Origin: an uncultured Poribacteria bacterium
GTDB lineage: Bacteria > Poribacteria > WGA-4E > WGA-3G
Reading direction: 5' to 3'
DNA: 64,000 bases
Assembly (NCBI GenBank): GCA_951812525.1
Contig: OX638316.1
Coordinates: forward strand, 3,218,506 to 3,282,505
Part shown: piece by piece, positions 29,014-56,554 of the stretch
Layout: every line of letters begins with the position of its first letter
How positions within the stretch are numbered: position 1 is the stretch's first letter
Notes under the pieces: model-generated
Told to the model about the DNA's origin: nothing
The model's input: only the letters and a program-made list of their open reading frames with translations
The model's database searches: none
Program-made: the position numbers and the translations under genes

Positions 29014-30942
29014 ATGAAAGAACACCTTCAAACCGAACCTTCCAGCCCCACCTTTCAGCCTCGTATCACAACTCCGCATGGACGGATAGGCGAGTTTAGG
29101 TTCAGTACCAGCAATAGGAAGCTTGCAACACCATACTTATACCCTGTCATTAACTTTCTGACGGGTACCAGTACGCGCGGTGGTGGGGTTTGGAAATACA
29201 TTTTGCAAATCTTGATGCAGCGGCAGACACCTATGCTATCGCAGATCTTGCACTTTCTCGATTTTCCGCTCACTGGTCGCTACCTCGCAAATTGGTATGG
29301 AAAGTCAATGCGGGAACATTATCGTGAGCAAAATGGAGAGTATGAAGGTGCTTTTTTTTTAGATTCCGGTGGGTTCAAACTTCTCTACAAGACCGGCTTG
29401 GATTTGGAAGAATTTGGAATTTACAAGGAAACAGAAGCAGAGGATATCCTCAATCTGCAATTGGGTTTTGAGGGTGATATTGTTGCCTCTCTGGATTATC
29501 CGCTTCCACCCAATTTAGCACGTCCAGAGGCTGAAGCACGCATGGAACAGAGCATCGCAAATGCTGTCCAAGTTGCAGAGCGGCTGACAATGGATACCGC
29601 GGATATACCGACCGAGCCTTATCTCTACACCTGCTGTCATGGACAATCCGGGGAGGACATCGCAAATTACGTTCACCGCGTCTTCGCACGCATAGGAGGC
29701 ATGTTACCCTCTTTCGGGCTTGCTGTTGGATCGCTCGTGCCTTTCCGCGGTAAGAACGACTCGGAAATTATGGAGATGCTTAACGCCGTTGTTCAAGCCA
29801 TTCCTGAGGATCGGCGAGATACAACACCTATTCACGCCTTCGGTGTTTCAGGAGCACTCACGCCCCTTCTTGCCTATATCGGTGTTGACACTTTCGATAG
29901 TTCTGCCTACATTCAAACGTCGCGGAGTCTCGTCTACTCAGATCCGGAAACCCAAAAGAAGCTCAGAATCATGGAGATGGATGAAGTGGACTGCAACTGC
30001 TATATCTGCGAAGCCTATCCACTTCAAGAAATTCAGCAGGCGTTCATGGATAAACGGAGTTACAGAGCCACCTCCACTGGAAAGTTTAAGAGCGAATACT
30101 ACGCTGCTATAGCACTTCACAACTTCCAAATGGAAGCCGACATTCTCACCGAAATGCACACCGCAATTGCAGCAGGTGATGCGCTTGAATGTCTAATCCG
30201 GTATCTCACGAAATACCAACGCTTCCGTGGTTTGAAACGGGCGGCAGCGTGGCTTGCAGAAAACGATGGTACGCTTGCATCTCGATTAGCCCGTACGCTA
30301 ATTCCGATTTCTACACCGGTAACTGCGAAGCGCACACAGCGAAATTCCGATCAATTGGAACTCTTTCCTGATGCACATGGGAACGCTGACAAGAATGAAA
30401 AAGGTGAGCCTCATCCAACTGTTTCACTCGCTTATACACCTGATGATTTCCGAGTTCCTGACGATTACCAACCTCCAGATGGAAAAGAGATTCTCCTTAC
30501 GATTCCTTGTGCTGGCAAGAAACCGTATTCCGTGTCACGCACGCACACGATGATTACAAATAGATTGCAGTCTGTCTTTGCCGAAAAACAGGACTGTATC
30601 CATAAAATAACCCTTTCTGGGCTTTACGGTCCCGTCCCTGAAGAATTTGAGACTGAAGATGCAGTTATCCGTTACGATTTCCAACTCTCACATAAAAACA
30701 CCGCGCAAATTGAGTGCTGTGCAGAGCGATTGGTTGACTACCTCAAAAAGTATCAAAACAACTATAAATATATAATCGGATACGCTACGAGCAGAGCGTA
30801 CAGAGCAGTCTTCGCGCTCACAGAAAAGCGTTTTCCAGGATTCATTTTATTACCGGAAGCCCCACGGCAGCAACGCTTGGCAGAATTCTTCAGGCATGCC
30901 AATGTAGATGCTTTGGTTGAGGCGATACAGGAAAAAATTTAG
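29014..30942 (+). CDS. Archaeal-type tRNA-guanine transglycosylase fused to an ArcS-like (DUF5591) domain
   Basis: The 642-residue product has an N-terminal TGT domain with its active site intact: FFLDSGGFKL (D117, acid/base), GLAVGSLVPF at 235-244, HAFGVSGALTPLLAYIG, and DTFDSSAY at 292-299 with D295 as the nucleophile. Zinc ligands C327, C329, C332 and H369 follow. After a linker (about 435-490), residues 498-511 read PCAGKKPYSVSRTH, which fits the PC-X3-KPY-X2-S-X2-H motif known from archaeosine synthase ArcS. No PUA domain is seen. A role in 7-deazaguanine insertion in tRNA, or in DNA as for DpdA, is inferred; no queuosine or dpd genes are nearby. Confidence 0.82.
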   Translation: MKEHLQTEPSSPTFQPRITTPHGRIGEFRFSTSNRKLATPYLYPVINFLTGTSTRGGGVWKYILQILMQRQTPMLSQILHFLDFPLTGRYLANWYGKSMREHYREQNGEYEGAFFLDSGGFKLLYKTGLDLEEFGIYKETEAEDILNLQLGFEGDIVASLDYPLPPNLARPEAEARMEQSIANAVQVAERLTMDTADIPTEPYLYTCCHGQSGEDIANYVHRVFARIGGMLPSFGLAVGSLVPFRGKNDSEIMEMLNAVVQAIPEDRRDTTPIHAFGVSGALTPLLAYIGVDTFDSSAYIQTSRSLVYSDPETQKKLRIMEMDEVDCNCYICEAYPLQEIQQAFMDKRSYRATSTGKFKSEYYAAIALHNFQMEADILTEMHTAIAAGDALECLIRYLTKYQRFRGLKRAAAWLAENDGTLASRLARTLIPISTPVTAKRTQRNSDQLELFPDAHGNADKNEKGEPHPTVSLAYTPDDFRVPDDYQPPDGKEILLTIPCAGKKPYSVSRTHTMITNRLQSVFAEKQDCIHKITLSGLYGPVPEEFETEDAVIRYDFQLSHKNTAQIECCAERLVDYLKKYQNNYKYIIGYATSRAYRAVFALTEKRFPGFILLPEAPRQQRLAEFFRHANVDALVEAIQEKI

Positions 30943-31051
30943 GACTTACGTGTTTCACTGGTAGGTACGGTTTATAACCTCACCAATTCCATAGGGATAA
31001 CCGTTTGTGTTGTCCGAGGATGGTACCTCAGCTTAATTTTGCGTAAGTCCT
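30941..31051. repeat. MITE-like element with 10-base terminal inverted repeats
   Basis: AGGACTTACG (30941-30950) and CGTAAGTCCT (31042-31051) are perfect inverted ends, and flanking AATTT/AAATT extends them. Inside, a degenerate GTAG hairpin (30961) and nested pairs such as ACGGTT/AACCGT occur. The left end overlaps the stop codon of the preceding gene. Confidence 0.5.
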
Positions 31052-31074
31052 GAAATTATAGGAATTAATAAAAA

Positions 31075-32244
31075 ATGTTGAGTTATTTTTTACCCCCACG
31101 AATTGAATTTGGAGACGGCACTATCCAAAACTTGGGTGAGCATGTCAAAGCGTTTGATGGCAAGAAGCCGCTCTTGGTGAGCGATGCTGGTGTTATCAAT
31201 GCAGGGCTTCTCGCCAAAGCGATAGATGCGTTAGAAGCAGTCGGTTTAGCGCATGCCACATATTCAGACATCGAACCCAATCCCACAGACATCAGTATTA
31301 CACACGGCGTAGAAGCTTACAAAGCGGAAGTGTGCGATGTCGTTATCGCTGTCGGTGGCGGGAGTGTGATGGATGCTGCGAAAGCGCTTCGTCTCTTGAC
31401 AACCCATGAACCACCGTTGGAACCTTACTACGCTGATGTCGGTGGAATTGAGCGAATTCAGGATGATATGCCACCCCTAATATGCGTTCCAACAACCGCT
31501 GGCACTGGTAGCGAGGTCTCACAAGGCGCAATTATCACCGATACATCGCTACAGACAACCGATCGGTGGCGAAAGCGCGCAATCGTTACACCGTTCAACA
31601 TGGCAGACGTAGCGCTCCTTGATCCCGGCATAACACTCGGCATGCCGCCTGCCCTCACCGCCGCAACGGGTATGGATGCTATTACCCACGGTATTGAGGC
31701 GTATGTGGCAACGAAATACCATCCAATTGCCGAGGGAGTTGCATTGCAGGCACTCAAAATGTTGAGCACCAATATCCGACAGGTGTATCACCACGGGGTG
31801 GATGTAGTCGCGCGGGGAGAAATGCTTCTCGGATCATGCATGGCAGCGTTTTCATTCCAGAAAGGGCTCGGTGCCGTTCACTCACTGGCGCATCAACTCT
31901 CTACGGACGCACCTATCCCGCACGGTGTAGCGAATGCGATTCTCCTTCCACCCGTTATGGAGTTTAACTTTTCTCATGCAAGCGAGAAATATGCAGAAGT
32001 CGCACGGGCTTTAGGCATAAACACCACTGGCATGGATAGTGACGAGGCAGGACATGCCGCTATTGATAAAATCCGGGAGTTCAATGTTGAACTAAATATG
32101 CCCGCAGGACTTGGAGCTGCTGGCTTGGATCGTAAAAAGATTCCAAAACTCGCAGCGGATGCAATGCTCGATCACTGTCACAAATTCAATCCGAGGGAGT
32201 GTACAGAAGCGGATATGAACGCGTTATTTGAAGCATCGTTTTGA
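31075..32244 (+). CDS. Iron-containing alcohol dehydrogenase
   Basis: The 389-residue protein opens with MLSYFLPPRIEFGDGTIQNLG and has DVVIAVGGGSVMDAAKAL for NAD binding, PTTAGTGSEVSQGAIITD, MDAITHGIEAYVATKYHPIAEGVALQAL and GAVHSLAHQLSTDAPIPHGVANAILLP; the Asp and three His residues in the last segments form the iron site. It would interconvert an alcohol and an aldehyde with NAD(H). ATG 31075 has only a weak ribosome site, AGGAATTA. The MITE-like element directly upstream separates it from the transglycosylase gene. Confidence 0.92.
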   Translation: MLSYFLPPRIEFGDGTIQNLGEHVKAFDGKKPLLVSDAGVINAGLLAKAIDALEAVGLAHATYSDIEPNPTDISITHGVEAYKAEVCDVVIAVGGGSVMDAAKALRLLTTHEPPLEPYYADVGGIERIQDDMPPLICVPTTAGTGSEVSQGAIITDTSLQTTDRWRKRAIVTPFNMADVALLDPGITLGMPPALTAATGMDAITHGIEAYVATKYHPIAEGVALQALKMLSTNIRQVYHHGVDVVARGEMLLGSCMAAFSFQKGLGAVHSLAHQLSTDAPIPHGVANAILLPPVMEFNFSHASEKYAEVARALGINTTGMDSDEAGHAAIDKIREFNVELNMPAGLGAAGLDRKKIPKLAADAMLDHCHKFNPRECTEADMNALFEASF

Positions 32245-40485: not shown

Positions 40486-43400
40486 ATGAAAATTAGGCTG
40501 TTTTCGATTTTGGCTTTTATCTTTCTGTCATTTGCAGGCGTGCTAAATTGTTTCGCACAAGACTACACGCGATTTAATTTACCTGAAGGAGCAATAGCGC
40601 GCTTCGGTAAAGGGACACTAAAAGATATTGCATATTCACCGGATGGGAATCAGCTGGCAGTAGCGAGTAGTGTCGGTGTTTGGATCTATGATGCAAATAC
40701 GGGTGCCGAGCTCTCCCTGCTTCCGGGCGATACTTTTAGGATTGATACAATTGCCTATTCTCCCGATGGTCGTACAATAGCAGGTCTCAGTTATAAAATG
40801 GTAAATTTGTGGGATACCGCGACTGGGCACCATAAAGCAACACTTGATGAATTCGGTGGTGGTACTACTGGACTGGCGTATTCACCTGATAGTCGCACAC
40901 TCGCTGTTGCAATGGATGAGCGAAATAATAAAGATTGGGTTGTCAAGGTAAATTTATATGATGTGGATACGGGTGAAGCCAAAACTACGCTCATCCAGGA
41001 GCCTGGATTTTCCCACTCCGGTTTTGTAGTTAATAATTCTCTTGCATATTCGCCTGATGGTCGCACAATTGCTGTTGTAATTCGTCCTTTCGCGAATGGA
41101 AATGATGTTGAGGGTACGGTAAATTTATATGATGTGGATACAGGGGAAATCAAAGGCGCACTCACTGGATTTAAGTATCAGGTCGCTGGTCTTGCGTATT
41201 CACCTGATGGTCGCATACTCGCAACTATCAATGGATGGGATCGAAAAGTACAGTTGTGGGATGCGGCCACAGGACAAGTTAAAACCACACTTGAAGGGCT
41301 TACCGGATACTCAATCTTTCTTGCGTATTCACCTGATGGTCGCACAGTTGCCGGTGCCGATATCCATGGGGTGCAGTTGTGGGATGCGACCACAGGACGA
41401 GCCAAAGCCACGTTTGCAAGGAACGGATTTATTGATGCTGTTAAATATTCGCCTGATGGTCGCACAATCGCCGTTGGAGACCGGAACGGGAGCGTGCGAT
41501 TATGGGATAGTACGACAGGACATTCCAAGTCTACACTGATTAATGAGCATGAATCTTTCGATGAAGTCGCGTATTCACCTGATGGTCGATTCCTAGCAGC
41601 TGGCAGTAGTGACGGCACTGCCCGTTTGTGGGATGCCGTGAGTGGTACGCATCTCAAAACCCTTACAGGTCATAGAGGGGGAGTGGCGAGCATCGCTTTC
41701 AGCCCTGATGGTCGGCTCCTTGCGACTGGCAGTAGTGATAATACGGTTCGTTTGTGGGATGCGGTCAGTGGTACGCATCTCAAAACCCTTACAGGACATC
41801 ATGCAGAGGTTTGGACCGTTGCTTTTAGTCCGGATGGTAAAACGATCGCCGGTGGTGGGTGTCCGAATGATAAAATTAGTTTATGGGATGTGGCAACCGG
41901 TCAACTTAGAAAATCCCTTACAGGGCATACCACTGCCTTCCGGAGTATTGTTTTCAGCCCGGATGGCAAAACAATCGCTGGTGGCGGTGGATATGGGACA
42001 AGTGAGGAACATGTTTGCATTTGGGATGTGGCAACCGGTCAACATCGAGAAGCACTCATCGGTAAGAGTAATAACTATAAGAGTTTAGCCTTCAGTCCAG
42101 ATGGCAAGATGTTTGCGGCCAATGGATACGACAGTATGTTATGGGATACTGCAACATGGACACCAATTCAAAAGCTAAATGAATCTTGGTATGTAAGCAG
42201 TGTCGCATTCAATTCCGATGGTCGCATTTTGGCATTTGGTGGTAGTAATTTCTGGGCACATATCAGTGAAAGAGGTATCCAGTTATGGGATGTTGCGAGG
42301 GGTCAAGGGCTCCAAGTCTTCAGTGGACCAGTGGCTGCCAACAGTGTTGCTTTCAGCCCTGATGATAGCACAATCGCAAGTGTAATAGACGGTGTCGTGT
42401 ATCTGTGGCAAGTCACACCCGTCAACTTACCAAACCCACAAGATGCAGACACACAGCAGCAAGATACAGACACACAGCAGACGGCACAAGAAGAAAAAGG
42501 TATACAACCATACCAGCGTGAGTTGGTTCAACTCGTCTACTTTCGACCCAACGATCGTTTGCAGCAACAAGGTATAGACACACAGTTAGACACATTGATA
42601 AGAGATACACAGTATTTCTACACCGAACAGATGCAAGACCACGGCGGAAAAACCTTCGCCTTTGAAACCGACGATACCGGCAACGCTCGCGTCCATCATA
42701 TAACTGGCAAGTTTGACGATGCCTATTATCATGAGGATACCTACCACAAAGTGGTTGAGGAGGTTACTGAGCAGTTTGATACCTCAAAAAATGCCTTCCT
42801 TATTGCGATAGATGTGAGTACTGAAGTCATTAACAACGCAGGCACTTGTGGTATAGGAGGTGGCGGGTGGACTTCGCTGGACAATGAAGCATGGCGCCGA
42901 ACTTTTGGAGGGACAGCGGTTATTCCTGCTTCTGGTTTCTGTTTTAGTGCGCGTATTGCTGCACATGAGCTCGGACACGTTTTTGGTTTACAACACGATT
43001 TCCGAGATGATGCCTATCTCATGGCTTATGGCTCGCAAGAGCGGTTGTCGAGTTGTGCTGCCGAATGGTTGGATGCCCACCGTTTCTTCAACAACGATCC
43101 TACCTTTTTCGATGATACTGCAACGCTGAAGATGCGCGCTTCAATCGCTTCTGGCATGAATACCCGTCAACTCCGATTTGAACTGACCGATCCAGATGGC
43201 TTGCATCAGGCACAACTTCTTATCCCAACGACTCCCGTCGATCCTGCCCCTGGCGCGAAACTACATAGCTGCAAGTCCCTGAACGGTAAAAGTCAAGCCG
43301 TCGAGTTTACCGTCACTGGCTTAGCCGCTGCACCCGACTCAGAAGTAACGCTTCAAGTTATTGATGTGCGTGGCAACATCGCAAGGCAGGCATTTCCGGT

Positions 43401-43803
43401 TGTTTTGGATGATGGTATCGTCAACGCTTCACCGGTGGCAATCGGCACGGTTCCTGACCTCGCTTTAACGTTCCACGATTCTACGATGCAAAGTGCTTCG
43501 GCGATACCAACACAGACGACACTATTGCCTAATTACCCGAACCCATTCAATCCAGAGACATGGCTACCGTATCAGTTAGCGGTGTCTGCGGATGTGGCAC
43601 TGCACATCTATTCAATAAACGGTAGTTTGGTCCGAACCTTATCCTTCGGACATCAACCTGCGGGTATGTATCACGACAGAAGTCGTGCGGCATATTGGGA
43701 TGGCAAAGATGAAGTGGGTGCACCTGTCGCAAGCGGTGTGTACTTCTACACCCTCACCGCAGGCGATTTCACCGCCACCCGAAAGATGCTGATACGCAAG
43801 TAG
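40486..43803 (+). CDS. Secreted WD40 protein with zincin domain and FlgD-like C-terminal tail
   Basis: ATG 40486 follows AAAAGGGGA. After a signal peptide (1-25) the 1105-residue protein has about fourteen WD40 units (about 35-645; repeated YSPDGR and LWD), a Gln/Thr/Asp-rich linker, then a zinc metalloprotease-like domain with HELGHVFGLQH at 827-837, the HExxHxxGxxH pattern of metzincins. It ends with a FlgD/T9SS-like domain (about 1009-1105: LLPNYPNPFNPETW, YWDGKDEVGAPVASGVYFYTLTAG, TRKMLIRK). It is a likely exported protease presented on propellers; export by a type 9-like route is inferred only. Confidence 0.88.
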   Translation: MKIRLFSILAFIFLSFAGVLNCFAQDYTRFNLPEGAIARFGKGTLKDIAYSPDGNQLAVASSVGVWIYDANTGAELSLLPGDTFRIDTIAYSPDGRTIAGLSYKMVNLWDTATGHHKATLDEFGGGTTGLAYSPDSRTLAVAMDERNNKDWVVKVNLYDVDTGEAKTTLIQEPGFSHSGFVVNNSLAYSPDGRTIAVVIRPFANGNDVEGTVNLYDVDTGEIKGALTGFKYQVAGLAYSPDGRILATINGWDRKVQLWDAATGQVKTTLEGLTGYSIFLAYSPDGRTVAGADIHGVQLWDATTGRAKATFARNGFIDAVKYSPDGRTIAVGDRNGSVRLWDSTTGHSKSTLINEHESFDEVAYSPDGRFLAAGSSDGTARLWDAVSGTHLKTLTGHRGGVASIAFSPDGRLLATGSSDNTVRLWDAVSGTHLKTLTGHHAEVWTVAFSPDGKTIAGGGCPNDKISLWDVATGQLRKSLTGHTTAFRSIVFSPDGKTIAGGGGYGTSEEHVCIWDVATGQHREALIGKSNNYKSLAFSPDGKMFAANGYDSMLWDTATWTPIQKLNESWYVSSVAFNSDGRILAFGGSNFWAHISERGIQLWDVARGQGLQVFSGPVAANSVAFSPDDSTIASVIDGVVYLWQVTPVNLPNPQDADTQQQDTDTQQTAQEEKGIQPYQRELVQLVYFRPNDRLQQQGIDTQLDTLIRDTQYFYTEQMQDHGGKTFAFETDDTGNARVHHITGKFDDAYYHEDTYHKVVEEVTEQFDTSKNAFLIAIDVSTEVINNAGTCGIGGGGWTSLDNEAWRRTFGGTAVIPASGFCFSARIAAHELGHVFGLQHDFRDDAYLMAYGSQERLSSCAAEWLDAHRFFNNDPTFFDDTATLKMRASIASGMNTRQLRFELTDPDGLHQAQLLIPTTPVDPAPGAKLHSCKSLNGKSQAVEFTVTGLAAAPDSEVTLQVIDVRGNIARQAFPVVLDDGIVNASPVAIGTVPDLALTFHDSTMQSASAIPTQTTLLPNYPNPFNPETWLPYQLAVSADVALHIYSINGSLVRTLSFGHQPAGMYHDRSRAAYWDGKDEVGAPVASGVYFYTLTAGDFTATRKMLIRK

Positions 43804-43808
43804 TCCCT

Positions 43809-43882
43809 GTAGGAAGAGTTTCCAACCCCGATTGCTTGCTACCAACGATTCGTTCTTCGCTGACGAGATTTCCAACCTCGCC
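43809..43882 (+). repeat. Two GTAG/CGAGGTT-type palindromic repeats
   Basis: GTAGGAAGAGTTTCCAACC (43809) and, after a GATTCGTTCTTCGCTG stretch, CGAGATT-TCC-AACCTCG (43863-43879). The second unit and its left flank recur at 59141-59174. Confidence 0.6.
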
Positions 43883-43984
43883 GGTTTTCTCTGGGAATTA
43901 CGTGTGTTCGACCTGTAGGTTATGTTGAACTAGCGAACCCAGCATTAGTTACTGACAACTGACAACTGATAATTCATCTTCAAT

Positions 43985-44112
43985 ATAGGAACGATCTCCT
44001 GATCGCGGCATGGAAAAACTGATAACTCGTCTTCAATGTAGGAGCGACCTCCCGATCGCGACATGTGAAAAAGGGATCTTCAATGTAGGAGCGATCTCCT
44101 GATCGCGACATG
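43985..44112 (+). repeat. Three consecutive GTAG-type palindromic repeats
   Basis: Copies at 43985-44012, 44038-44065 and 44085-44112 share (G)TAGGA, the six-pair stem GCGATC / GATCGC with a TCCT or TCCC loop, and a trailing GACATG. The last copy ends 16 bases before the WD40 gene start at 44129. The first is slightly diverged (ATAGGAACG). Confidence 0.85.
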
Positions 44113-44128
44113 TAAAAAGGGATCTTCA

Positions 44129-47100
44129 ATGAAAACGAAGATATTTTCAATTTTTTTGACGTTGATTCTGTTTTCAAGTATGTATCTATTACCCAGCCTT
44201 GCGCAGGACTACACACAGTGGCATTTACCGGAAGGTGCCAAAGCCCGCATCGGAAAAGGCGGTGTATCTGAGCTAACATATTCCCCCGATGGCTCTCAAC
44301 TAGCAGTAGGCACTGAACTTGGGATTTGGATATACGACACACACGCAGGCACAGAGATTGATTGGCTCACGCCGGATCCATCCAATCCTACTTATGTTAC
44401 AAGTGTTACGTATTCCCCCGATGGTCGTTCACTCGCAGCGGGCGGTTCCCATAGGGTCTATTTGTGGGACGCTGTCGCAGGACAATCTGAAGATATACTC
44501 AAGGTTCCTGCTATTAACGGTTGGGTTTCTGGGGTCAATGGTGTGAAATATTCTCCCGATGGTCGCACGCTCGCAAGTGGGGGTTATGCTGACAATACAG
44601 TACGGTTGTGGGACCCCGTCACGGGTGCTTCTCTCGGAATTCTACGAGGACACACAAACCAGATTCACAGCATTGCCTTCAGTCCGGATGGCAAAATACT
44701 CGCGAGTGCCAGTGGTCGTAAATTCGGAGATGAAGATGTTGACAACACTGTAAGATTATGGGATACGGTGTCTGGCGTAGAAAAAGCGGTTCTCTCAGGT
44801 CATGCAGAGTATGTCAGTAGCGTCAGTTTCAGTCCGGATGGTAAAACCCTCGCAAGTGGAAGTAGGGATGCCACGATACGACTATGGGACGTTGGTACAG
44901 GGCAACTTTATTCTACACTTAAGGATGAAAGTGGAGTCCTGAGCGTCAGTTTCAGCCCCGATGGCAGGACTCTCGCAAGCGGAAATATGCGCGGAGGCGT
45001 CCAGTTGTGGGATATTGGTACAGGGCAACTCAAATCCACGCTTCGAGAACATACGAGTAATGTCGTGTCTGTTGCATTTAGTCCCGATGGTAGGACCGTC
45101 GCAAGTGGAAGTCTGGATGGTACGATACGGCTGTCGGATACTATCACTGGACAACTCATATCTACACTGCGAGGACATACACGTGAAGTTAAGAAAGTCG
45201 CGTTTTCTCGCGATGGTGTCACGCTCGTGATACAGGATTCCAAGGATGTGCAGTTGTGGAGTACTGTCACTGGACAACTTAAATTCACACTCCCTAATAA
45301 CGGATGGATATATGATATTGCCTATTCTCCCGATGGTCGCACGCTCGCTATTGCTGGGGCGGTTGACGTGCAACTATGGCGTGCTGACACAGGGCAGCAC
45401 AAAGCAACATTTATTGAACTTGAACGTGAACAGTACATTCTAAGTCTTGCCTATTCTCCAGATGGTACGACGATCGCAACTGGGAGTGTGAATGGCAAGA
45501 CGTATTTGTGGGATGCATTGTCCGGGGCACCTAAAGCCACGCTCTCAGGAGATGTAGAACGGGTTTATAGCATCGGTTTCAGTCCGGATAGTGCTATACT
45601 TGCCGGTGGAGGCGGACGTGCTGAAACTGTGCATCTGTGGGATACAAGCTCTGGTGCCCTTCTAAAAACTTTCGCAGAGCATCCAGAAGGTGTCATGAAT
45701 ATTGCCTTCAGTCCCGATGGCAATACACTCGCAGTGGAGACCCCAGGTGCGGGGTACTTTGATGCAAAAGTTGTACTGTGGGATGTTACCAGTGGGCAAC
45801 GCAAAGCCTCACTGCCAATCGCAAGATCCTGTTATTACTCTGGGGTCGCCTTTAGTCCTGATGGTGGCCTCGTCGCAAGTGGTGGGAATGGAGGACCCTT
45901 GTTAATGTGGGATGTTGCTACAGGTGAGTTATTAAATAGGTTTACTGGACATAGAGGTTGGATTCAGACGATCGCTTTTAGTCCGGATGGTGATACACTT
46001 GCCAGTGGAAGTATAGATGGCACAGTTTTCTTGTGGGATGTTACGCCGTTCGTTTCACAACGGCAAACCCAACAAGATACATACATAAAACAGACCGAAC
46101 GAGAGCTGGTGCAGCTGATATACTTCCGTCCGTCCGACCGTTTATCCCAACCAGGGATTGACGCAGCTTTAGACAAATTGATGAGGAACACACAGTACTT
46201 CTACACAGCCCGGATGCAGAGCCACGGTGGTAAAACTTTTGCTTTTGAAACCGATATTATTGGTAATGCTAAAGTACATCATGTGAATGGAAAGTTCAAC
46301 GATGCCTATTATCATGAGGATACCTACGACAGAGTACTCGAAGAGGTAGCTGAGCAGTTCGATATATCAAAGAATGTCTACCTTATTGCTGTAGATGTGA
46401 GTACCGAGGTCATTAACGATGCACACACCTGTGGGATAGGCGGCGGCGGTTGGAGTTCACGGGATAACGAGACATGGCGGCGAAGTTTCGGTGGGACAGC
46501 CATGATTCCGGCTTCTGGTGTCTGTTTTACCGAGCATATCGCTGCACATGAACTCGGACACGCTTTTGGCTTAGAACACGATTTTCGGGACGATGCATAT
46601 CTGATGGCTTACGGAACGCAAAAACGCTTGTCGGAAGGTGCCGCCGAATGGTTAGCTGCACATCGGTTCTTTAACCCAAGGCAAACCTTTTTCAATGAAA
46701 CCACAACAATTGGTATGATCTCTTCATTCGCCTCAGAGGAAAATACCCGTCGTCTGCGTTTTGAACTAACCGACCCAGAGGGCTTGCATCAGGTACAACT
46801 TCTTATCCCAACAGCTCCCGCTGATCCTGCACAAGGCACGAAGTTACATAGTTATCGATCCCTAAACGGTACAGGTCAGGCTGTTGAGTTTGTCGTCACT
46901 GGATTAGGGGATGATCCGGATACTGAAGTAACCCTGCAAGTAATTGATGGGTCTGGGAACATTACAAAACAGACCTTTCCTTTTGTGTTAGAGGGTGGCT
47001 TAGCAAACAGGTCTCCGGTGGCGGTCGGCACGATTCCATCCCAAACTGTGACGATTGGTGGTGATCCGAAAACGCTTGACATCTCGTCTTATTTTTCCGA

Positions 47101-48322
47101 TCCAGACGAAGATATTTTGAGTTATAATATTGAGTCATCCAATGAACATGTGGCAACGGTGAGTGTGACTGGAACCATACTTACAATTGTCCCAAGCGCT
47201 ATCGGTACCGCCAACATAGCACTGACAGCCAGTGATGGCAAATTGAGCGTCATACATCACTTTTCAGTCCATATTACCAGTCCACCCGTCGAAGAAACCC
47301 CAGAAGTTAGGGCTATCATAGCAACCGTCCGTACTGAGGATTTGGTGTTGTATCTCCCATTTGACGCTGGAACTGGAACGACAGCTGCAGATTCCTCGAA
47401 ACACCAGAATCACGGTACCCTTCACAAAGCGACATGGACAGATGGAAAAGACGGAAATGCTGTTGAGTTGACTGGCGAACCCGGCAGCTGGGTTGAAGTG
47501 CCAGATTCCCCCTCTTTAGACATTACCGATAAAATCACACTGATGGCGTGGGTGCATCCGACGCGGTTCACACATGAGTGGTTACGTATCATCGTCAAAA
47601 CATGGGCAGGAGACATTGCACCTTGGATGGTCTATGGACTCTATCAGCAAGGCGACTCCAACGGGAAAGTCGGTTTCATTATGTCTGTTGATGGCGGGCG
47701 AGAAGTGCGCTGCGGGAACGGACCAAGTCCGCAGCTACCCCTGAATGAATGGACACACCTTGCCGCAACCTACGATGGTACACGAATGAAACTTTACTAT
47801 AACGGTGAGTTAAAAGTGGAGACAGCCGCAACCGGTCAAATCGATACCAACGACGTGCCGTTGTCTATCGGTAGAAATAGTGAAAGCAATAGAGAACACT
47901 ACATCGGTCTGATTGACGAAGTGGCTATCTGGAGTGCTGCCTTGACTGAGTCCGAAATCAGACAGGCGATGGGAGACGCTTCTGTACAAGCAGCACCTAC
48001 GCTGGGTGCCTCGGTAGAAGTGTTGCCAACACAAACCGGTCTTTTGCCAAACTACCCCAATCCTTTCAATCCAGAGACGTGGCTGCCCTATCAGTTAGCA
48101 GATCCTGCTGATGTAACGCTACACATCTATTCGATAAATGGCACCTTAGTTCGCACACTATCCTTAGGGCATCAGGCTGCGGGTATGTATCACGGCAGAA
48201 GCCGTGCTGCATATTGGGATGGGCGCAATGCACAGAGTGAACCGGTCGCGAGTGGAATCTATTTTTACACTCTCACCGCCGGAGACTTCACCGCCACCAG
48301 AAAGATGCTGATACGCAAATAA
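44129..48322 (+). CDS. Secreted giant WD40 protein with zincin, cadherin-like, LamG and FlgD-like domains
   Basis: At 1397 residues this is the longest gene. ATG 44129 follows AAGGGATC. Signal peptide 1-25 is followed by QDYTQWHLPEGAKARIGKG, the N-terminus common to the WD40 group. About fifteen WD40 units span 40-645, a zincin domain carries HELGHAFGLEH at 807-817, a cadherin-like domain lies near 968-1055, a LamG domain near 1070-1285 (VLYLPFDAGTGTTAADSS), and the FlgD-like tail at about 1305-1397. The zincin region is a clear paralogue of that in the preceding gene. Probable surface or secreted protease/adhesin. Confidence 0.88.
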   Translation: MKTKIFSIFLTLILFSSMYLLPSLAQDYTQWHLPEGAKARIGKGGVSELTYSPDGSQLAVGTELGIWIYDTHAGTEIDWLTPDPSNPTYVTSVTYSPDGRSLAAGGSHRVYLWDAVAGQSEDILKVPAINGWVSGVNGVKYSPDGRTLASGGYADNTVRLWDPVTGASLGILRGHTNQIHSIAFSPDGKILASASGRKFGDEDVDNTVRLWDTVSGVEKAVLSGHAEYVSSVSFSPDGKTLASGSRDATIRLWDVGTGQLYSTLKDESGVLSVSFSPDGRTLASGNMRGGVQLWDIGTGQLKSTLREHTSNVVSVAFSPDGRTVASGSLDGTIRLSDTITGQLISTLRGHTREVKKVAFSRDGVTLVIQDSKDVQLWSTVTGQLKFTLPNNGWIYDIAYSPDGRTLAIAGAVDVQLWRADTGQHKATFIELEREQYILSLAYSPDGTTIATGSVNGKTYLWDALSGAPKATLSGDVERVYSIGFSPDSAILAGGGGRAETVHLWDTSSGALLKTFAEHPEGVMNIAFSPDGNTLAVETPGAGYFDAKVVLWDVTSGQRKASLPIARSCYYSGVAFSPDGGLVASGGNGGPLLMWDVATGELLNRFTGHRGWIQTIAFSPDGDTLASGSIDGTVFLWDVTPFVSQRQTQQDTYIKQTERELVQLIYFRPSDRLSQPGIDAALDKLMRNTQYFYTARMQSHGGKTFAFETDIIGNAKVHHVNGKFNDAYYHEDTYDRVLEEVAEQFDISKNVYLIAVDVSTEVINDAHTCGIGGGGWSSRDNETWRRSFGGTAMIPASGVCFTEHIAAHELGHAFGLEHDFRDDAYLMAYGTQKRLSEGAAEWLAAHRFFNPRQTFFNETTTIGMISSFASEENTRRLRFELTDPEGLHQVQLLIPTAPADPAQGTKLHSYRSLNGTGQAVEFVVTGLGDDPDTEVTLQVIDGSGNITKQTFPFVLEGGLANRSPVAVGTIPSQTVTIGGDPKTLDISSYFSDPDEDILSYNIESSNEHVATVSVTGTILTIVPSAIGTANIALTASDGKLSVIHHFSVHITSPPVEETPEVRAIIATVRTEDLVLYLPFDAGTGTTAADSSKHQNHGTLHKATWTDGKDGNAVELTGEPGSWVEVPDSPSLDITDKITLMAWVHPTRFTHEWLRIIVKTWAGDIAPWMVYGLYQQGDSNGKVGFIMSVDGGREVRCGNGPSPQLPLNEWTHLAATYDGTRMKLYYNGELKVETAATGQIDTNDVPLSIGRNSESNREHYIGLIDEVAIWSAALTESEIRQAMGDASVQAAPTLGASVEVLPTQTGLLPNYPNPFNPETWLPYQLADPADVTLHIYSINGTLVRTLSLGHQAAGMYHGRSRAAYWDGRNAQSEPVASGIYFYTLTAGDFTATRKMLIRK

Positions 48323-48335
48323 TATTTCTTCTAAT

Positions 48336-48430
48336 GTAGGGGTAGGTATTGTGCATACCCAATTTCGTTGCACGAAGATGCTGTGCTTCGTCTGCTAGTG
48401 CTGTATGAGCAATCTCCCGATCGCTACATG
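48336..48430 (+). repeat. Compound GTAG repeat block, paralogous to 56441-56534
   Basis: GTAGGGGTAGGTATTGTG with CATACCC, then a CTTCG-containing hairpin, then a GTATGAGCAATCTCCCGATC unit (48403-48430). The same order occurs after the gene ending at 56427, including the TTCTTCTAAT just upstream. Confidence 0.7.
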
Positions 48431-48448
48431 GAAAAAAGGAGACTTTCT

Positions 48449-50014
48449 ATGAAAACAAAGTTATTTTCATTTTTTTTCACATTCTTTCTGTGCTTAATAC
48501 TCCTCCTTCCGCAGACTTATGCCCAAAATTATACAACATTACGTTTATCTGAATTTGCCAAAGGACCTGTGGGTTCAGGCAGCATCAACAGCATACAGTT
48601 TTCTCCTGATGGCAAACTTCTGGCAGTTGCGAGTTCCACCAGTATTTGGATATACGATGTTGACACCAGTAAAGAACTGTATCGATTCATAGGACATGTG
48701 CAGACTGTTTCGAGTATAGCGTTCAGTCCGAATAGTAAAATGTTAGCGAGTGGAAGTTGGGATCAAACCGTCCGCTTATGGGATCCAAAAAAGGGGACGC
48801 ACCTGCGGACACTCACTGGGCATACAGGTAGGGTCCATAGCGTAGCGTTCAGTCCAAATGGTCGAACATTGGCAAGTAGCGGTGCTGACAAAATCGTCCG
48901 CTTGTGGGATACCGGAAAAGGCACACACAAACACGATCTCATTGGACATACAGCTGAAGTCTATAGTGTAGCCTTCAGTCCGAATGGTCGAACATTGGCG
49001 AGTGGCGGATGGGATGCCACTATCCGCTTATGGGATACCGGAAAAGGCACACACAAGCAGACGCTTAGACGTCGTACGGATAGGTTCAGTAGTGTAGCCT
49101 TCACGCCAGATGGTCAGATCCTTGTAAGTGTGGGTGGTAGACAGATTCGCTTGTGGGATCTCTCAACAGGCAGGGTAACAGAGACACTCACAGGACGGCA
49201 TACGGACAGTGTCAGTAGTATATCTATCAGTCGAGATGGTCAAGCACTCGCGAGTGGGAGCAGGGATACTACCATTCGTGTGTGGGAACTCCCATCTGGC
49301 AAGTACAGGCGATCGCTCATGGGGCATACCGGTAGTATTAGTAGCGTATCCTTCAGTCCAGATGGTAAGGCCCTGGCAAGTCGAAGTGGAACCGAAATTC
49401 GCTTGTGGGATCTCTCAGCTGGCATATTCACTGAGGGAGAAAACGAATTTAATAAAATGGGCAAACGTACGGGTTTTATCTGGGGAATCGGGGTTGGCAC
49501 CGGAACGACAAGTTACACACAATCTCTTGTTGAATATTGGGGAACCGCTTATGAAGGTCCCACGGTAACAGAACGCGGACGCGAGTCCGCTTTTGTAACC
49601 GATATCAGAATAGGACACGGATTTTCGGAGCAGTTCCTACTTTACTATACAAGTCGAATCACATGGCTACCGTTGCGCAATCTTTACAAGGACACTATGG
49701 TTGCCAACGGCACAGCTGGCGTTGGACTCACGATCTATCCTCTGTATAAATATAATTTTTATCTTACAGGTTCTGTCGGATTAGCAACCTTGGCAACATG
49801 GTTTCCACCCTTTGAATTGGACCAAGCACGCGCAACAGGGATGGCAGTTTCAGCAGGAATCGGTTACGAATTCTTCCGCCACTGTTCTCTTGACCTTACG
49901 GTAAGTTTCGGCAACGCCTCCGCAAAGCAAATTGAGCAACTGAGGCTGAATGAGGCTGAGCTGACAAATGAGGTCGTCACTGTTATATTGACGCTTAACG
50001 GACTTGCCTACTAA
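48449..50014 (+). CDS. WD40 propeller fused to an outer-membrane-type beta-barrel
   Basis: ATG 48449 follows AAAAAAGGAGACTTTC. The 521-residue protein has a signal peptide (1-25), about seven WD40 units (45-335; FSPNGRTLASSGADKIVRLWD), then instead of a protease or tail it has a C-terminal part of some 175 residues with alternating strands (GFIWGIGVGTGTTSY, FLLYYTSRITWLP, GTAGVGLTIYPLYKYNFYLTGSVGLATL, AGIGYEFFRHCSLDLTVSFG) ending in NGLAY. This fits an eight-stranded membrane barrel. It could anchor a propeller on the outer membrane. The arrangement is rare; topology is inferred. Confidence 0.78.
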   Translation: MKTKLFSFFFTFFLCLILLLPQTYAQNYTTLRLSEFAKGPVGSGSINSIQFSPDGKLLAVASSTSIWIYDVDTSKELYRFIGHVQTVSSIAFSPNSKMLASGSWDQTVRLWDPKKGTHLRTLTGHTGRVHSVAFSPNGRTLASSGADKIVRLWDTGKGTHKHDLIGHTAEVYSVAFSPNGRTLASGGWDATIRLWDTGKGTHKQTLRRRTDRFSSVAFTPDGQILVSVGGRQIRLWDLSTGRVTETLTGRHTDSVSSISISRDGQALASGSRDTTIRVWELPSGKYRRSLMGHTGSISSVSFSPDGKALASRSGTEIRLWDLSAGIFTEGENEFNKMGKRTGFIWGIGVGTGTTSYTQSLVEYWGTAYEGPTVTERGRESAFVTDIRIGHGFSEQFLLYYTSRITWLPLRNLYKDTMVANGTAGVGLTIYPLYKYNFYLTGSVGLATLATWFPPFELDQARATGMAVSAGIGYEFFRHCSLDLTVSFGNASAKQIEQLRLNEAELTNEVVTVILTLNGLAY

Positions 50015-50036
50015 GTGCTATGTCCATTTTAACTTT

Positions 50037-50062
50037 GTAGATGTGGTTTGTAACCGCACTGG
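50037..50062 (+). repeat. GTAG-type palindromic repeat
   Basis: GTAGATGTGGTT-TGT-AACCGCACT: the stem ATGTGGTT / AACCGCA(C) uses G-T pairs. It is a sequence relative of the hairpin at 17176. Confidence 0.7.
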
Positions 50063-50145
50063 ACAAAAATATTCAGAAACATTACATTTACCCACAATTT
50101 GAAAGTGGATGAAGCATTAGGTGTTTCCTTAGCAAGAGGTAAATT

Positions 50146-50898
50146 ATGAGCAAAAAAGGCGTATCACGGTTTTTTATAACAGTGGGATCGATGATAGTTT
50201 TGTTTGCATTCAACTTCATCAATTTGAATCTTATCGGTTGTGGGGCGGACGAAGCAGAAACCGAGAGCGGAACAGAACAACTCACGGATGAAGAACAGAA
50301 AAATCTGATCCGATTTGTAGAATACGTGCTTTTCCCAACAACCCCTTACATAGATAAATCGTGGGTAGAAATAGTCCCGGAAGAGGAGGTGGCGGAAGGG
50401 GAGCCAATTGACTTCGCAGCAGAGACCGCAGCGATCCAACAGACCTTCAACGAATTTTATAATGCCTATAACATAAATAGTGCACGCGCTGTTTTAGAGA
50501 CTTTCTGGTCTCGTGGCATCAGATTTCAAGGGAAGTTGAGTAAGGCTACAGCGAGATCCTACATTGAGACTAGATTTGTTGAAGCGAAGCGTGGGGGAGG
50601 GAAAGCCGCCTGGGGACCAACGCCTGAATTGGCAGCATTTTATATCCGTCGCGCGTATGTCCAGGCTCCCTATCCCGAAGCGAGCGCGTACGGGTTTAAT
50701 GGACCAAGCGTCAGCTTTGATGGAGATGACGTAAATCCGTTTAATGCTATCACCTATCTGTATCTGGTAAAACAAGGCGGTAGATGGTTAATTAATCAGC
50801 TTTCTACTGTTAGTCCACCTCAGAAATACTTTGACGATCCGGAATATGAAGCCCCTTTAACTACAATAGAATGGACTCCGCTTCCTGCTAACCGTTGA
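50146..50898 (+). CDS. Lipoprotein with NTF2/SnoaL-like fold
   Basis: ATG 50146 follows AAGAGGTAAATT. The 250-residue product has a long N-terminal hydrophobic stretch and lipobox LIGC (C32), an acidic linker, and a core IQQTFNEFYNAYNINSARAVLETFWSRGIRFQGK ... YLYLVKQGGRWLINQLSTV, which fits the alpha+beta cone of NTF2-like proteins. No catalytic residues stand out. It lies 28 bases upstream of the matrixin-TPR gene and is probably cotranscribed, perhaps as an accessory surface lipoprotein. Confidence 0.65.
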   Translation: MSKKGVSRFFITVGSMIVLFAFNFINLNLIGCGADEAETESGTEQLTDEEQKNLIRFVEYVLFPTTPYIDKSWVEIVPEEEVAEGEPIDFAAETAAIQQTFNEFYNAYNINSARAVLETFWSRGIRFQGKLSKATARSYIETRFVEAKRGGGKAAWGPTPELAAFYIRRAYVQAPYPEASAYGFNGPSVSFDGDDVNPFNAITYLYLVKQGGRWLINQLSTVSPPQKYFDDPEYEAPLTTIEWTPLPANR

Positions 50899-50925
50899 CG
50901 GTTCCATCTTCTAGAGACCCACATT

Positions 50926-53433
50926 ATGCAAATAAAAACACTTCATTTCCTCTTTACCCTTACGCTAATGGTTATTGTCTGTATAACACCAGCAGTCGCA
51001 CAAAACGCCACCGATAGTGAAACCAGAACAGACACTGCACCAGATTATTTCGATCAGGTCACACTATTCTCGGACGGCAGAATCACGCGCTTTACAGACA
51101 TGCCAATTTGGGTGCATATCTCCCCGACCCTCAAAGCACTCCCTTATTTACCCGAGATCCGTTATGCCATGAACACTTGGGAGACCGCATCCGACAGGAA
51201 AATTCGTTTTCAAGAAACTAAAAACTTGGAGCAAGCAGACATCCGCGTTACCACAACCGACAGTTCTCGTCTAAGATTCTTAGATACACAACTCGGCAGT
51301 GCTGAGTTAACGCGGCTTGCGCAAGACACATACACCGTCTCCGGCAATGATGTCCAGATACAAAATAACAAGACTAATCAAATTTCAAACACAGCAGCCA
51401 ATTTCACCGTAGAGGTAATCCTTGTATTAGAGGGTGATGGCACGACTGGAGAACTGACGCAAGCAGAGATGCGCACGGTCTGCTTGCATGAGTTTGGACA
51501 TGCCATCGGATTGTGGGGACACAGTCCCGATCCCCTTGATGTTTGTCATGCCACGGCGGCAACCCAATACCCAACTCCCCGCGATATCAGAACCTTGCTC
51601 AAACTTTACAACACGCCACTGCATACACCACAGCACGAAACCGCTATTAACTTATTAAAGAAGGAACTCCAACCAAACACGAGACGTGCCCGCCCACACT
51701 ACCTTCTCGGTGCCGTCTACTTTGACAAAGGCGACACGGCACTCGCAATCGCCAGTTTTCAGAACTGCCTCGGAATCGATCCTAATTATGAACCCGCAAG
51801 AGAGAAACTGATTCAGGCTTATGAAAAAACAGGACAGGCACACCAAGCCATTCGTCTTGTTGAACAAAGAGTGAAGAACCAGCATGGACATCGCGACTTC
51901 CGCGAGAGTGCCGACTCCTATAACGTCCTCGGCACGCTCCATTACCGACAAGGCGATATAGACAAAGCGATACAAGCATTTGAGAATGCTCTTGAACGTT
52001 CACCGCATCACAAAGCCGCAAAACGAAACCTACACCAACTCCTTCGCGAAAAAGCCTTTAATGCCTTGAAGATGAATGCTTTTGACGAGGCGACCATATA
52101 TTTTGAAAGAGCCATTCATCTCGACCCGCTAAATGCGACCACCTATCGACTCATGGGAGATGGATATGTCCACGTCTCTCAGTTTTCAAAAGCGATTGGA
52201 TACTACCAAAAAGCATTAGAAGTCGCTCCCAACGATGAGGTGACACAGAAGAATCTCACGCACTGCTATAATAACTATGGCGTGACGCTCAGGAATAACG
52301 GCAAATGGGATGAGGCGATCCGCGCCTACCAGAACGCCTTGAAGTTACAACCTACCTATCAACTCGCCAAAACAAACCTCAGCGATGTCCTGTGGGAGAA
52401 AGCGAATGCCTACCGACAATCTGGACGTTCCGCCGACGCAATTGCTACGTATCTTGAATTGCGGAAACTCCATCCAGACGATACAGATATCGCCAGTTTG
52501 CTTGGAGAGTTATATCTTAAAGTGCGAGATTATCCGGCAGCGATTTCGGCATTTCATAAAGTCTACACGGCACTCCCCACCGACAAACAGGCACAGCATA
52601 ATCTCATCGCTGCCTACCTACAATATGCGCAATCCTTGAGAGAGCGAAGAAACTATACTGCTGCAGCGACCGAGCTCCAAAAAGCAATAAATTTCTTTCC
52701 CACTGATCTCAAGCTCCGTCTGAGTTTATCCCAAGTATACCAGCGTATAGGCAAATACGATCAAGCACGAGACGAATTGAAATATATTTTGGTTCAAGAC
52801 CCCGATAATGAAAACGCAAAAACGGAACTCCTGAACCTCCAAATCCGGCGCGGAAACGCCTTGATGAATCGGAAGAGATACGCAGAAGCGGTTGCTATCT
52901 TTGAGGAGATTCCAGCATCTGCAAAAACCGTCGATATGCGCAACATGATTGGCTATCTCTATCTCGTGCAGGATGAACATCTTAAGGCGTTGGCGACTTT
53001 TGAAACGGTTCTCACTAACCACCCAAGGAATACCGTCGCGTATCAGAATGTGCTCTCACTTGAATCGCAACTGGAAGTGGCTCTTCACGAGACACAAACT
53101 GCTGCACAGACAAACACCGACCCTAACGAAGCTACATCACTCCCCGATACAATAGAGCCTACGCCTGATCCCACCGCAGAAAAATTGTCCCGTGTGCAGT
53201 GTGTTCTTGCCCGTTGTTTAATGAATCGCAAGCAACCTAAAAATGCACTGGAGAAATACCGACAGGCTTTAGAAGCGAAACCCTATACACCGGAATTGCA
53301 AGTGCTCCTGATTGACACCGGTAGATGGCTCGCCAATCAGTTCCAGAAGCGAAACGATACCGATAGTTATGACGAGATTGTGCGTTGGATGACGGAGTTG
53401 GATAGCGATTTTAAAGAGTCGCTTGAACCCTAA
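50926..53433 (+). CDS. Secreted matrixin-like metalloprotease with TPR repeats
   Basis: The 835-residue protein starts at ATG 50926. Signal peptide 1-25 (CITPAVA). The protease part (about 40-225) carries HEFGHAIGLWGHS at 188-200; the third His is one residue further than in classical matrixins, a variant common in bacterial relatives. From about 230 to 830 come many TPR units (ARPHYLLGAVYFDKGDTALAIASFQNCLGIDPN, YNVLGTLHYRQGDIDKAIQAFENALERSP). TPRs would bind partner proteins. Fusion of a metzincin to a long TPR superhelix in one exported protein is uncommon. Confidence 0.85.
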   Translation: MQIKTLHFLFTLTLMVIVCITPAVAQNATDSETRTDTAPDYFDQVTLFSDGRITRFTDMPIWVHISPTLKALPYLPEIRYAMNTWETASDRKIRFQETKNLEQADIRVTTTDSSRLRFLDTQLGSAELTRLAQDTYTVSGNDVQIQNNKTNQISNTAANFTVEVILVLEGDGTTGELTQAEMRTVCLHEFGHAIGLWGHSPDPLDVCHATAATQYPTPRDIRTLLKLYNTPLHTPQHETAINLLKKELQPNTRRARPHYLLGAVYFDKGDTALAIASFQNCLGIDPNYEPAREKLIQAYEKTGQAHQAIRLVEQRVKNQHGHRDFRESADSYNVLGTLHYRQGDIDKAIQAFENALERSPHHKAAKRNLHQLLREKAFNALKMNAFDEATIYFERAIHLDPLNATTYRLMGDGYVHVSQFSKAIGYYQKALEVAPNDEVTQKNLTHCYNNYGVTLRNNGKWDEAIRAYQNALKLQPTYQLAKTNLSDVLWEKANAYRQSGRSADAIATYLELRKLHPDDTDIASLLGELYLKVRDYPAAISAFHKVYTALPTDKQAQHNLIAAYLQYAQSLRERRNYTAAATELQKAINFFPTDLKLRLSLSQVYQRIGKYDQARDELKYILVQDPDNENAKTELLNLQIRRGNALMNRKRYAEAVAIFEEIPASAKTVDMRNMIGYLYLVQDEHLKALATFETVLTNHPRNTVAYQNVLSLESQLEVALHETQTAAQTNTDPNEATSLPDTIEPTPDPTAEKLSRVQCVLARCLMNRKQPKNALEKYRQALEAKPYTPELQVLLIDTGRWLANQFQKRNDTDSYDEIVRWMTELDSDFKESLEP

Positions 53434-53457
53434 CTTCACTGGCTTTCAATTTAATTG

Positions 53458-53482
53458 GTATACGAGGTTTCTAACCTCGCCA
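53458..53482 (+). repeat. CGAGGTT-type palindromic repeat
   Basis: Perfect stem CGAGGTT / AACCTCG with TCT loop (53463-53479), preceded by GGTAT in place of GTAG. Confidence 0.75.
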
Positions 53483-53575
53483 CCGATAGCGTATAGATAA
53501 TTGCGACTGTTCCTATAATTAATAATTCGGCAGAAGTTCTATAATCCTGAGAATCTCAAAAACCCTATCTTCAAT

Positions 53576-53650
53576 GTAGGAGCGATCTCCTGATCGCGAC
53601 ATTTGTAACATACAACATTTTCTGTAGTAGCGATCTCCCGATCGCGACAT
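53576..53650 (+). repeat. Two GTAG-type palindromic repeats
   Basis: Copies at 53576-53603 and 53624-53650, with stem GCGATC / GATCGC and loops TCCT and TCCC. They lie 20 to 95 bases upstream of the WD40 gene at 53671. In the second copy GTAGTAG replaces GTAGGAG. Confidence 0.85.
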
Positions 53651-53670
53651 TTCCAAAAAGGAGACCTTCC

Positions 53671-56427: not shown

Positions 56428-56440
56428 TCCTTCTTCTAAT

Positions 56441-56534
56441 GTAGCGGTAGGTCTTGTGTCTACCCAATCTTGTTGGACGAGGTTCCCGTGCCTCGTCCGC
56501 TGGCACTGTAGGAGCGATTTCCCAATCGCGACAT
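56441..56534 (+). repeat. Compound GTAG repeat block, paralogous to 48336-48430
   Basis: GTAGCGGTAGGTCTTGTG with CTACCC, a GACGAGG / CCTCGTC hairpin and a final GTAGGAGCGATTTCCCAATC unit (56508-56534). In the last unit the stem is GCGATT / AATCGC, a compensatory change from GCGATC / GATCGC. Confidence 0.75.
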
Positions 56535-56554
56535 TTCCAAAAAGGAGACCTTCC

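Follow-up and report, generated by a model that had tools for sequence, protein, structure and literature searches.

The archaeal tRNA enzyme ArcS consists of a TGT-like half, reported to be degenerate, followed by a DUF5591 domain and a PUA domain. It adds lysine to preQ0, after which RaSEA completes archaeosine, and it accepts very small preQ0 substrates (PMC11298593). In DNA modification, DpdA has a conserved His196 (PMC6884629) and DUF6884 occurs in DpdC (PMC11888242), and phages with 7-deazaguanine DNA are restricted by the DUF262-bearing GrwAB (PMC12137116). BRIGADE systems are described only for halophilic archaea, in a preprint whose main text names neither TGT nor ArcS (PMC12458937), and a TGT with a HerA/FtsK-type partner is reported for BREX-related capture (BRC), the accessible part of that account making no mention of a DUF5591 fusion (PMC12839542).

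The window analysed here, a stretch of 64,000 nucleotides from an uncultured Poribacteria bacterium, encodes a protein in which a TGT domain and a DUF5591 domain are joined in one chain, with the following features.

29014..30942, + strand: TGT-DUF5591 fusion gene, 642 aa, ATG start (Pfam, homologues, dN/dS)
29341..30219, + strand: TGT catalytic domain (PF01702), residues 110-402 (Pfam match, Foldseek)
29362..29364, + strand: D117 of DSGGF, predicted general acid/base (aligned with 1IQ8)
29638..29640, + strand: H209, in place of the Gln of tRNA TGTs (residue type as in S. Montevideo DpdA, 7UI4)
29896..29898, + strand: D295 of FDSSAY, predicted nucleophile (aligned with archaeal TgtA, 1IQ8)
29992..30120, + strand: zinc site C327, C329, C332 and H369 (CxCxxC/His; aligned with 1IQ8)
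30301..30435, + strand: linker, residues 430-474, disordered and fast-evolving (pLDDT <50, higher dN)
30451..30816, + strand: DUF5591/ArcS core domain (PF17884), residues 480-601 (Pfam, 2Q07 profile match, Foldseek)
30505..30546, + strand: PCAGKKPYSVSRTH, the PC-x3-KPY-x2-S-x2-H motif, residues 498-511, with C499 and K503
30616..30645, + strand: SGLYGPVPEE motif, collinear with ILSAKHGLLHPE of DUF6884/DpdC

Both domains score above their curated Pfam cut-offs (TGT, E 1.8e-18 and 67.2 bits against a gathering score of 26.3; DUF5591, E 1.4e-14 and 54.6 bits against 26), bearing out the two-domain reading frame proposed in the first-pass annotation, and the E-values together with the residue invariance across homologues described below exclude a chance origin of both domains. 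The same Pfam scan gave TGT and DUF5591 alone, confirming that the window protein has no PUA domain. Among the NCBIfam models it falls below the cut-offs of both ArcS models (NF040592, 82.3 bits against 440; NF053620, 44.1 against 600), of archaeal TgtA (TIGR00432, 75.7 against 350) and of bacterial Tgt (31.2 against 306.75), and above its own cut-off only for a general TGT model (63 bits). By these scores it is related to ArcS, TgtA and bacterial Tgt but exceeds the equivalog cut-off of none; the TGT half lies nearer to archaeal TgtA than to bacterial Tgt. PADLOC DpdA profiles gave no match to the window protein at E <=1. The full-length AlphaFold model (mean pLDDT 81) has a confident TGT half and a confident DUF5591 half with the disordered linker between them, and a Foldseek search with it is dominated by TGTs, headed by TgtA 1IQ8 and bacterial TGT, with DpdA not among the 50 matches listed.

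The protein thus shares with ArcS (NF040592) the order of a TGT fold followed by DUF5591, and the PC-x3-KPY-x2-S-x2-H motif, but differs in having an intact TGT site and no PUA domain. TgtA provides its closest TGT profile, with the DSG, FDS and CxCxxC-H residues aligned, but the fusion has HG for QG, and carries DUF5591 where TgtA has its PUA module. With DpdA and DpdC (7UI4; DUF6884/DUF328) it has in common the TGT fold, the His seen in 7UI4, a C-terminal domain collinear with DUF6884 and, in some relatives, Dpd-like neighbours; unlike them it is a single chain, TGT and then modifier, and no DpdB-type gene was identified near the fusion.

The intact TGT active site claimed at first pass is borne out by the alignment of D117, D295 and the zinc ligands with 1IQ8, and D117, D161, H209, D295, C327, C329, C332 and H369 do not vary among 27 homologues, the most distant of them at 33% identity. 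In the base-binding loop, Gln is present in the Tgt of the same genome, TgtA and QTRT1, and His in all fusions and in DpdA 7UI4 (QG to HG). The annotated DpdA proteins of two other loci (L049 and L108) have Gln at the position equivalent to H209, and given these the His appears to be an imperfect marker of a DNA enzyme. Four loci in relatives (L021-L024; genomes G003, G012, G042 and G045) encode TGT-like proteins of about 400 aa that have HG for QG and are without the zinc cysteines; these match DpdA only weakly, where the comparison was made.

The claim that an ArcS-type motif lies on the same chain also stands, at residues 498-511. C499, K503, P504, Y505, S508, S535, G536, Y538, G539, V541 and P542 are invariant in all 27 homologues, with P498 and H511 kept in 26 of them, and the loss of the motif Lys or Cys in close homologues was not seen. 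The AF0587 structure 2Q07 matches the C-terminal domain by profile (E 1.2e-12), and when that domain was modelled alone (AlphaFold, pLDDT 92) 2Q07 was the sole Foldseek match at E <0.001 (E 1.6e-6). As AF0587 is a DUF5591 protein without known activity, and as the linker is long and disordered, the TGT half alone might be catalytic and the DUF5591 half a targeting or binding domain; we think this very unlikely, since the predicted catalytic residues of DUF5591 are all invariant and under purifying selection. A stand-alone DUF5591-like protein in a 347 aa frame was seen in another relative (L028, genome G082), with QCSVRRPF where the fusion family has PCxxxKPY (Lys to Arg).

Comparison of DUF5591 with DUF6884 by hhalign aligns four motifs in one order (PCSxxK/SCSxxK, SGLYGPVPE/SAKHGLLHP, YDFRL/YDRRM and AYR/EYR) with Cys and Lys kept, albeit in an alignment that is statistically weak (best single-comparison P 1.6e-4; probability 8-51% depending on the alignment). 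This suggests, as a lead rather than proof, that the two domains form one nitrile-handling superfamily. The fusion could act as a DpdA-DpdC-like enzyme, placing preQ0 in DNA and hydrolysing the nitrile to the amide (dADG), a variant that overlaps with the explanation we prefer and is consistent with the collinear motifs, their common Cys and Lys, the lack of RaSEA in carriers, and a DUF6884-DpdA fusion in the window's genus that has NurA-HerA partners, as does a TGT-DUF5591 fusion elsewhere. We regard it as somewhat doubtful, in that DpdC is far more distant from the C-terminal sequence than are AF0587 and the ArcS core, and that a Haladaptatus island has DUF6884 besides its fusions, which argues for different chemistry.

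Besides the fusion, the genome encodes a canonical Tgt, a full QueC and a QueF, and so can make preQ0; QueC is also at full strength in eight of the nine carrier genomes outside Poribacteria. None of the carriers searched has a RaSEA (TIGR01210) match above cut-off, which makes archaeosine by the ArcS-RaSEA route unlikely. For an amidinated product (archaeosine) we found no support, the domain also aligning with DUF6884 of DpdC; lysine or other amine adducts, or an amide, would remain as candidate products. A thioimide intermediate has been shown for QueF-L (PMC5485725), and we infer by analogy that Cys499 may form one. One genome of the Poribacteria class that lacks the fusion (L053:655-1863, genome G077) encodes a radical SAM protein of RaSEA type that scores marginally above the curated cut-off and is possibly contamination.

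The fusion is not a one-off in a single bacterium but belongs to a family that spans several bacterial phyla and haloarchaea. Eighteen of 98 genomes of relatives carry it, the window's own genome counted and one copy broken; the window protein shares 46-79% identity with the other copies from Poribacteria, and the closest homologues in public records bear Poribacteria titles. OX639992.1 and OX638352.1 are among the Poribacteria sequences that have the gene. Outside Poribacteria it is found in Cyanobacteria (3/390 genomes), Chloroflexota (5/400 genomes), one planctomycete record titled Kuenenia, and haloarchaeal plasmids of Haladaptatus and Natrinema (32-34% identity over 96% of the length); culturable carriers include strains of Planktothrix, Thermogemmatispora and Thermosporothrix. 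In a TGT-domain tree the fusions cluster together (support 91/87), separate from TgtA, 7UI4-type DpdA and canonical Tgt, and they form a monophyletic, sporadically distributed family. Viral carriage was rejected, as no homologue was found in viral and phage collections. A relative of Thermogemmatispora (L100:10383-16694, genome G554) has a second fusion copy a few kilobases from a serine-recombinase-like gene. Within the window's genus, pairwise dN is 0.05-0.15 and dS 0.47-1.6 (dN/dS ~0.1), with dN low in the TGT and DUF5591 halves and the linker evolving faster; both halves are under purifying selection. This ratio and the invariant active-site residues support the earlier suggestion that both halves are likely to be catalytically intact.

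In this genus the fusion occupies a fixed site, with a gene for a small secreted-type protein on one side and that for an iron alcohol dehydrogenase on the other, and two further features lie next to it in the window.

30943..31056, strand not assigned: short repeated element with inverted ends (GGACTTACG...CGTAAGTCC), between fusion and alcohol dehydrogenase and outside the enzyme
31075..32244, + strand: iron-containing alcohol dehydrogenase, a fixed neighbour and core gene of the genus, function probably unrelated

The flanking genes adjoin without the fusion in 22 of the 30 loci examined, and two genomes carry remnants, reduced to the first 26 codons in one (G035) and broken by a stop or frameshift in the other (G028); from these we conclude that the fusion is an accessory gene lost at least twice. 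No defence gene adjoins the fusion in the window or the genus, nor do dpd restriction or preQ0 genes, which adjoin it in distant relatives only; dpd genes in the genome itself were surveyed by family searches covering part of the set. The empty and broken sites and the lack of defence neighbours might mean that the gene is left over in this genus from a restriction system since lost and now serves no purpose. Against this, the copy in the window is intact and the low dN/dS holds between intact copies, and we consider a relic quite unlikely. The alcohol dehydrogenase adjoins the fusion in 10 genomes, but was rejected as a functional partner since it occurs in nearly all members of the genus that lack the fusion, beside the same upstream gene, and is probably a bystander.

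Outside the genus the neighbours are of a different kind. In cyanobacteria, DUF262/GmrSD_N and HEPN-type genes lie downstream on the same strand in all seven loci with readable downstream sequence (L074, L075, L076, L077, L084, L085 and L098), assigned by Pfam in L075 only and by plain sequence resemblance in the others; in L097 a DUF262 gene is visible before the sequence ends. A DpdJ-like helicase directly follows the fusion in L073 and L098, in the latter standing between the fusion and the DUF262/HEPN genes. No description of these three- or four-gene operons was found in the literature searched; that GrwAB restricts phages with 7-deazaguanine DNA (PMC12137116) shows that a response to a base of this kind is possible for a DUF262 protein. 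In Thermosporothrix, NurA-HerA lies directly upstream of the fusion, which recalls the HerA/FtsK-type partner of the BRC TGT, although the fusion loci show no PglZ or BrxC (BRC as described in the accessible part of PMC12839542). A Poribacteria genome of the window's own genus has NurA, HerA and the DUF6884-DpdA fusion in one row (L049:4655-10037, genome G006), a compact Dpd-like system, and as its NurA and HerA are homologous to those of Thermosporothrix (27% and 31% identity), two different modifier fusions fill the same slot. DrmB and DrmA adjoin the fusion in a Chloroflexi record (L082), convergent and on the opposite strand. A Haladaptatus plasmid (L086:2123-16658) carries two TGT-DUF5591 paralogues, a third TGT, DUF6884, PLD, a GHKL ATPase and helicases; this island and that of Natrinema, with their DUF6884, TGT and PLD or helicase genes, fit the description of BRIGADE (PMC12458937), whereas in bacteria the fusions have different partners or stand alone.

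These neighbourhoods bear on whether the substrate is tRNA or DNA, which the first-pass annotation left as alternatives. As a tRNA enzyme, the fusion would insert preQ0 into tRNA, perhaps at position 15, and turn it into a lysine adduct or a base resembling archaeosine; bacteria would have acquired the TgtA-ArcS pathway in fused form. ArcS and TgtA are indeed its closest profiles, the ArcS motif is kept in full, and the PUA domain may be dispensable because ArcS takes very small preQ0 substrates (PMC11298593). We nevertheless find a tRNA enzyme unlikely, given the lack of PUA, the change of Gln to His in the base-binding loop, the lack of RaSEA over cut-off in any carrier, the DNA-restriction genes that are its neighbours elsewhere, and a pattern of recurrent loss and frequent absence from close relatives that does not resemble that of a housekeeping tRNA modification. 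Plasmid carriage, patchy distribution, the defence settings and DpdA-type His209 favour the DNA alternative, perhaps some threefold, as a judgement and not a measurement.

The explanation we prefer, with a confidence a little better than even, is that the fusion hypermodifies DNA as a single polypeptide, first inserting preQ0 and then converting the nitrile of that base. Beyond the computed domains, active-site conservation, selection, family spread, neighbourhoods and preQ0 supply, we infer a DNA substrate, an order of steps, a kind of product and a role as a self mark. Working through a covalent intermediate at Asp295, the TGT half would cut the glycosidic bond of a guanine in DNA and insert preQ0 that the cell makes by its QueC pathway; the DUF5591 half, on its flexible linker, would then use Cys499 to attack the nitrile of this preQ0, and conversion would most likely be by addition of an amine such as lysine, as in ArcS, or otherwise of water, as in DpdC. 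The mark could serve as a self/non-self signal for adjoining restriction-type helicases and nucleases in haloarchaea, cyanobacteria and some Chloroflexi, and in the window's Poribacteria genus the gene would be a solitary accessory modifier. Several findings count against this: the absence of adjoining defence genes in the genus, the TGT half scoring nearest to the tRNA enzyme TgtA with no PADLOC DpdA match, Gln at the His position in some annotated DpdA, the lack of viral or phage homologues, the opposite strand of DrmA/B in L082, the weak DUF5591-DUF6884 alignment, and a helicase of another Poribacteria genus that usually accompanies its own methylase with the fusion not adjoining. On balance this is a real, conserved two-domain enzyme family that most likely modifies DNA with 7-deazaguanine in defence settings. 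More tentatively, insertion of preQ0 into DNA and its conversion to a lysine-adduct or archaeosine-type base may both be the work of one polypeptide in bacteria, and this compact modifier may have been combined with several unrelated restriction modules (DUF262-HEPN, NurA-HerA, DrmA-DrmB and BRIGADE-like) to give a family of restriction-modification systems; the base that these would use is not yet known from cellular bacteria.

If the preferred explanation is true, a single enzyme performs both chemical steps of 7-deazaguanine DNA modification, the archaeal tRNA enzyme ArcS is linked to DNA defence marks, the cyanobacterial operons are testable candidate restriction systems, and a one-gene tool for putting modified guanine into DNA could be at hand. 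A fusion with both halves active is also the kind of ancestor from which ArcS could have arisen by losing one activity.

The other Poribacteria genus just mentioned (g2) has methylase-PLD/SNF2 helicase genes upstream of the fusion, and helicase and fusion co-occur in genomes above chance (Fisher P 0.001, uncorrected for kinship); as a partner this system was left as weak, being found mostly elsewhere without an adjoining fusion. A system of an Eco57I-type methylase and a PLD/SNF2 helicase is conserved in Poribacteria (L152-L159), where additional genes frequently separate the two. The repeated element at 30943-31056 has five full or partial copies in the genome, and the gap between fusion and dehydrogenase is only ~13-20 bp in several orthologues; Rfam gave no match to a riboswitch or other known RNA in the window. 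Several large secreted-type paralogues are encoded at positions 40486-59128 of the window; they have WD40-like repeats and share the C-terminal sequence NYPNPFNPET, and some contain dockerin-like segments.
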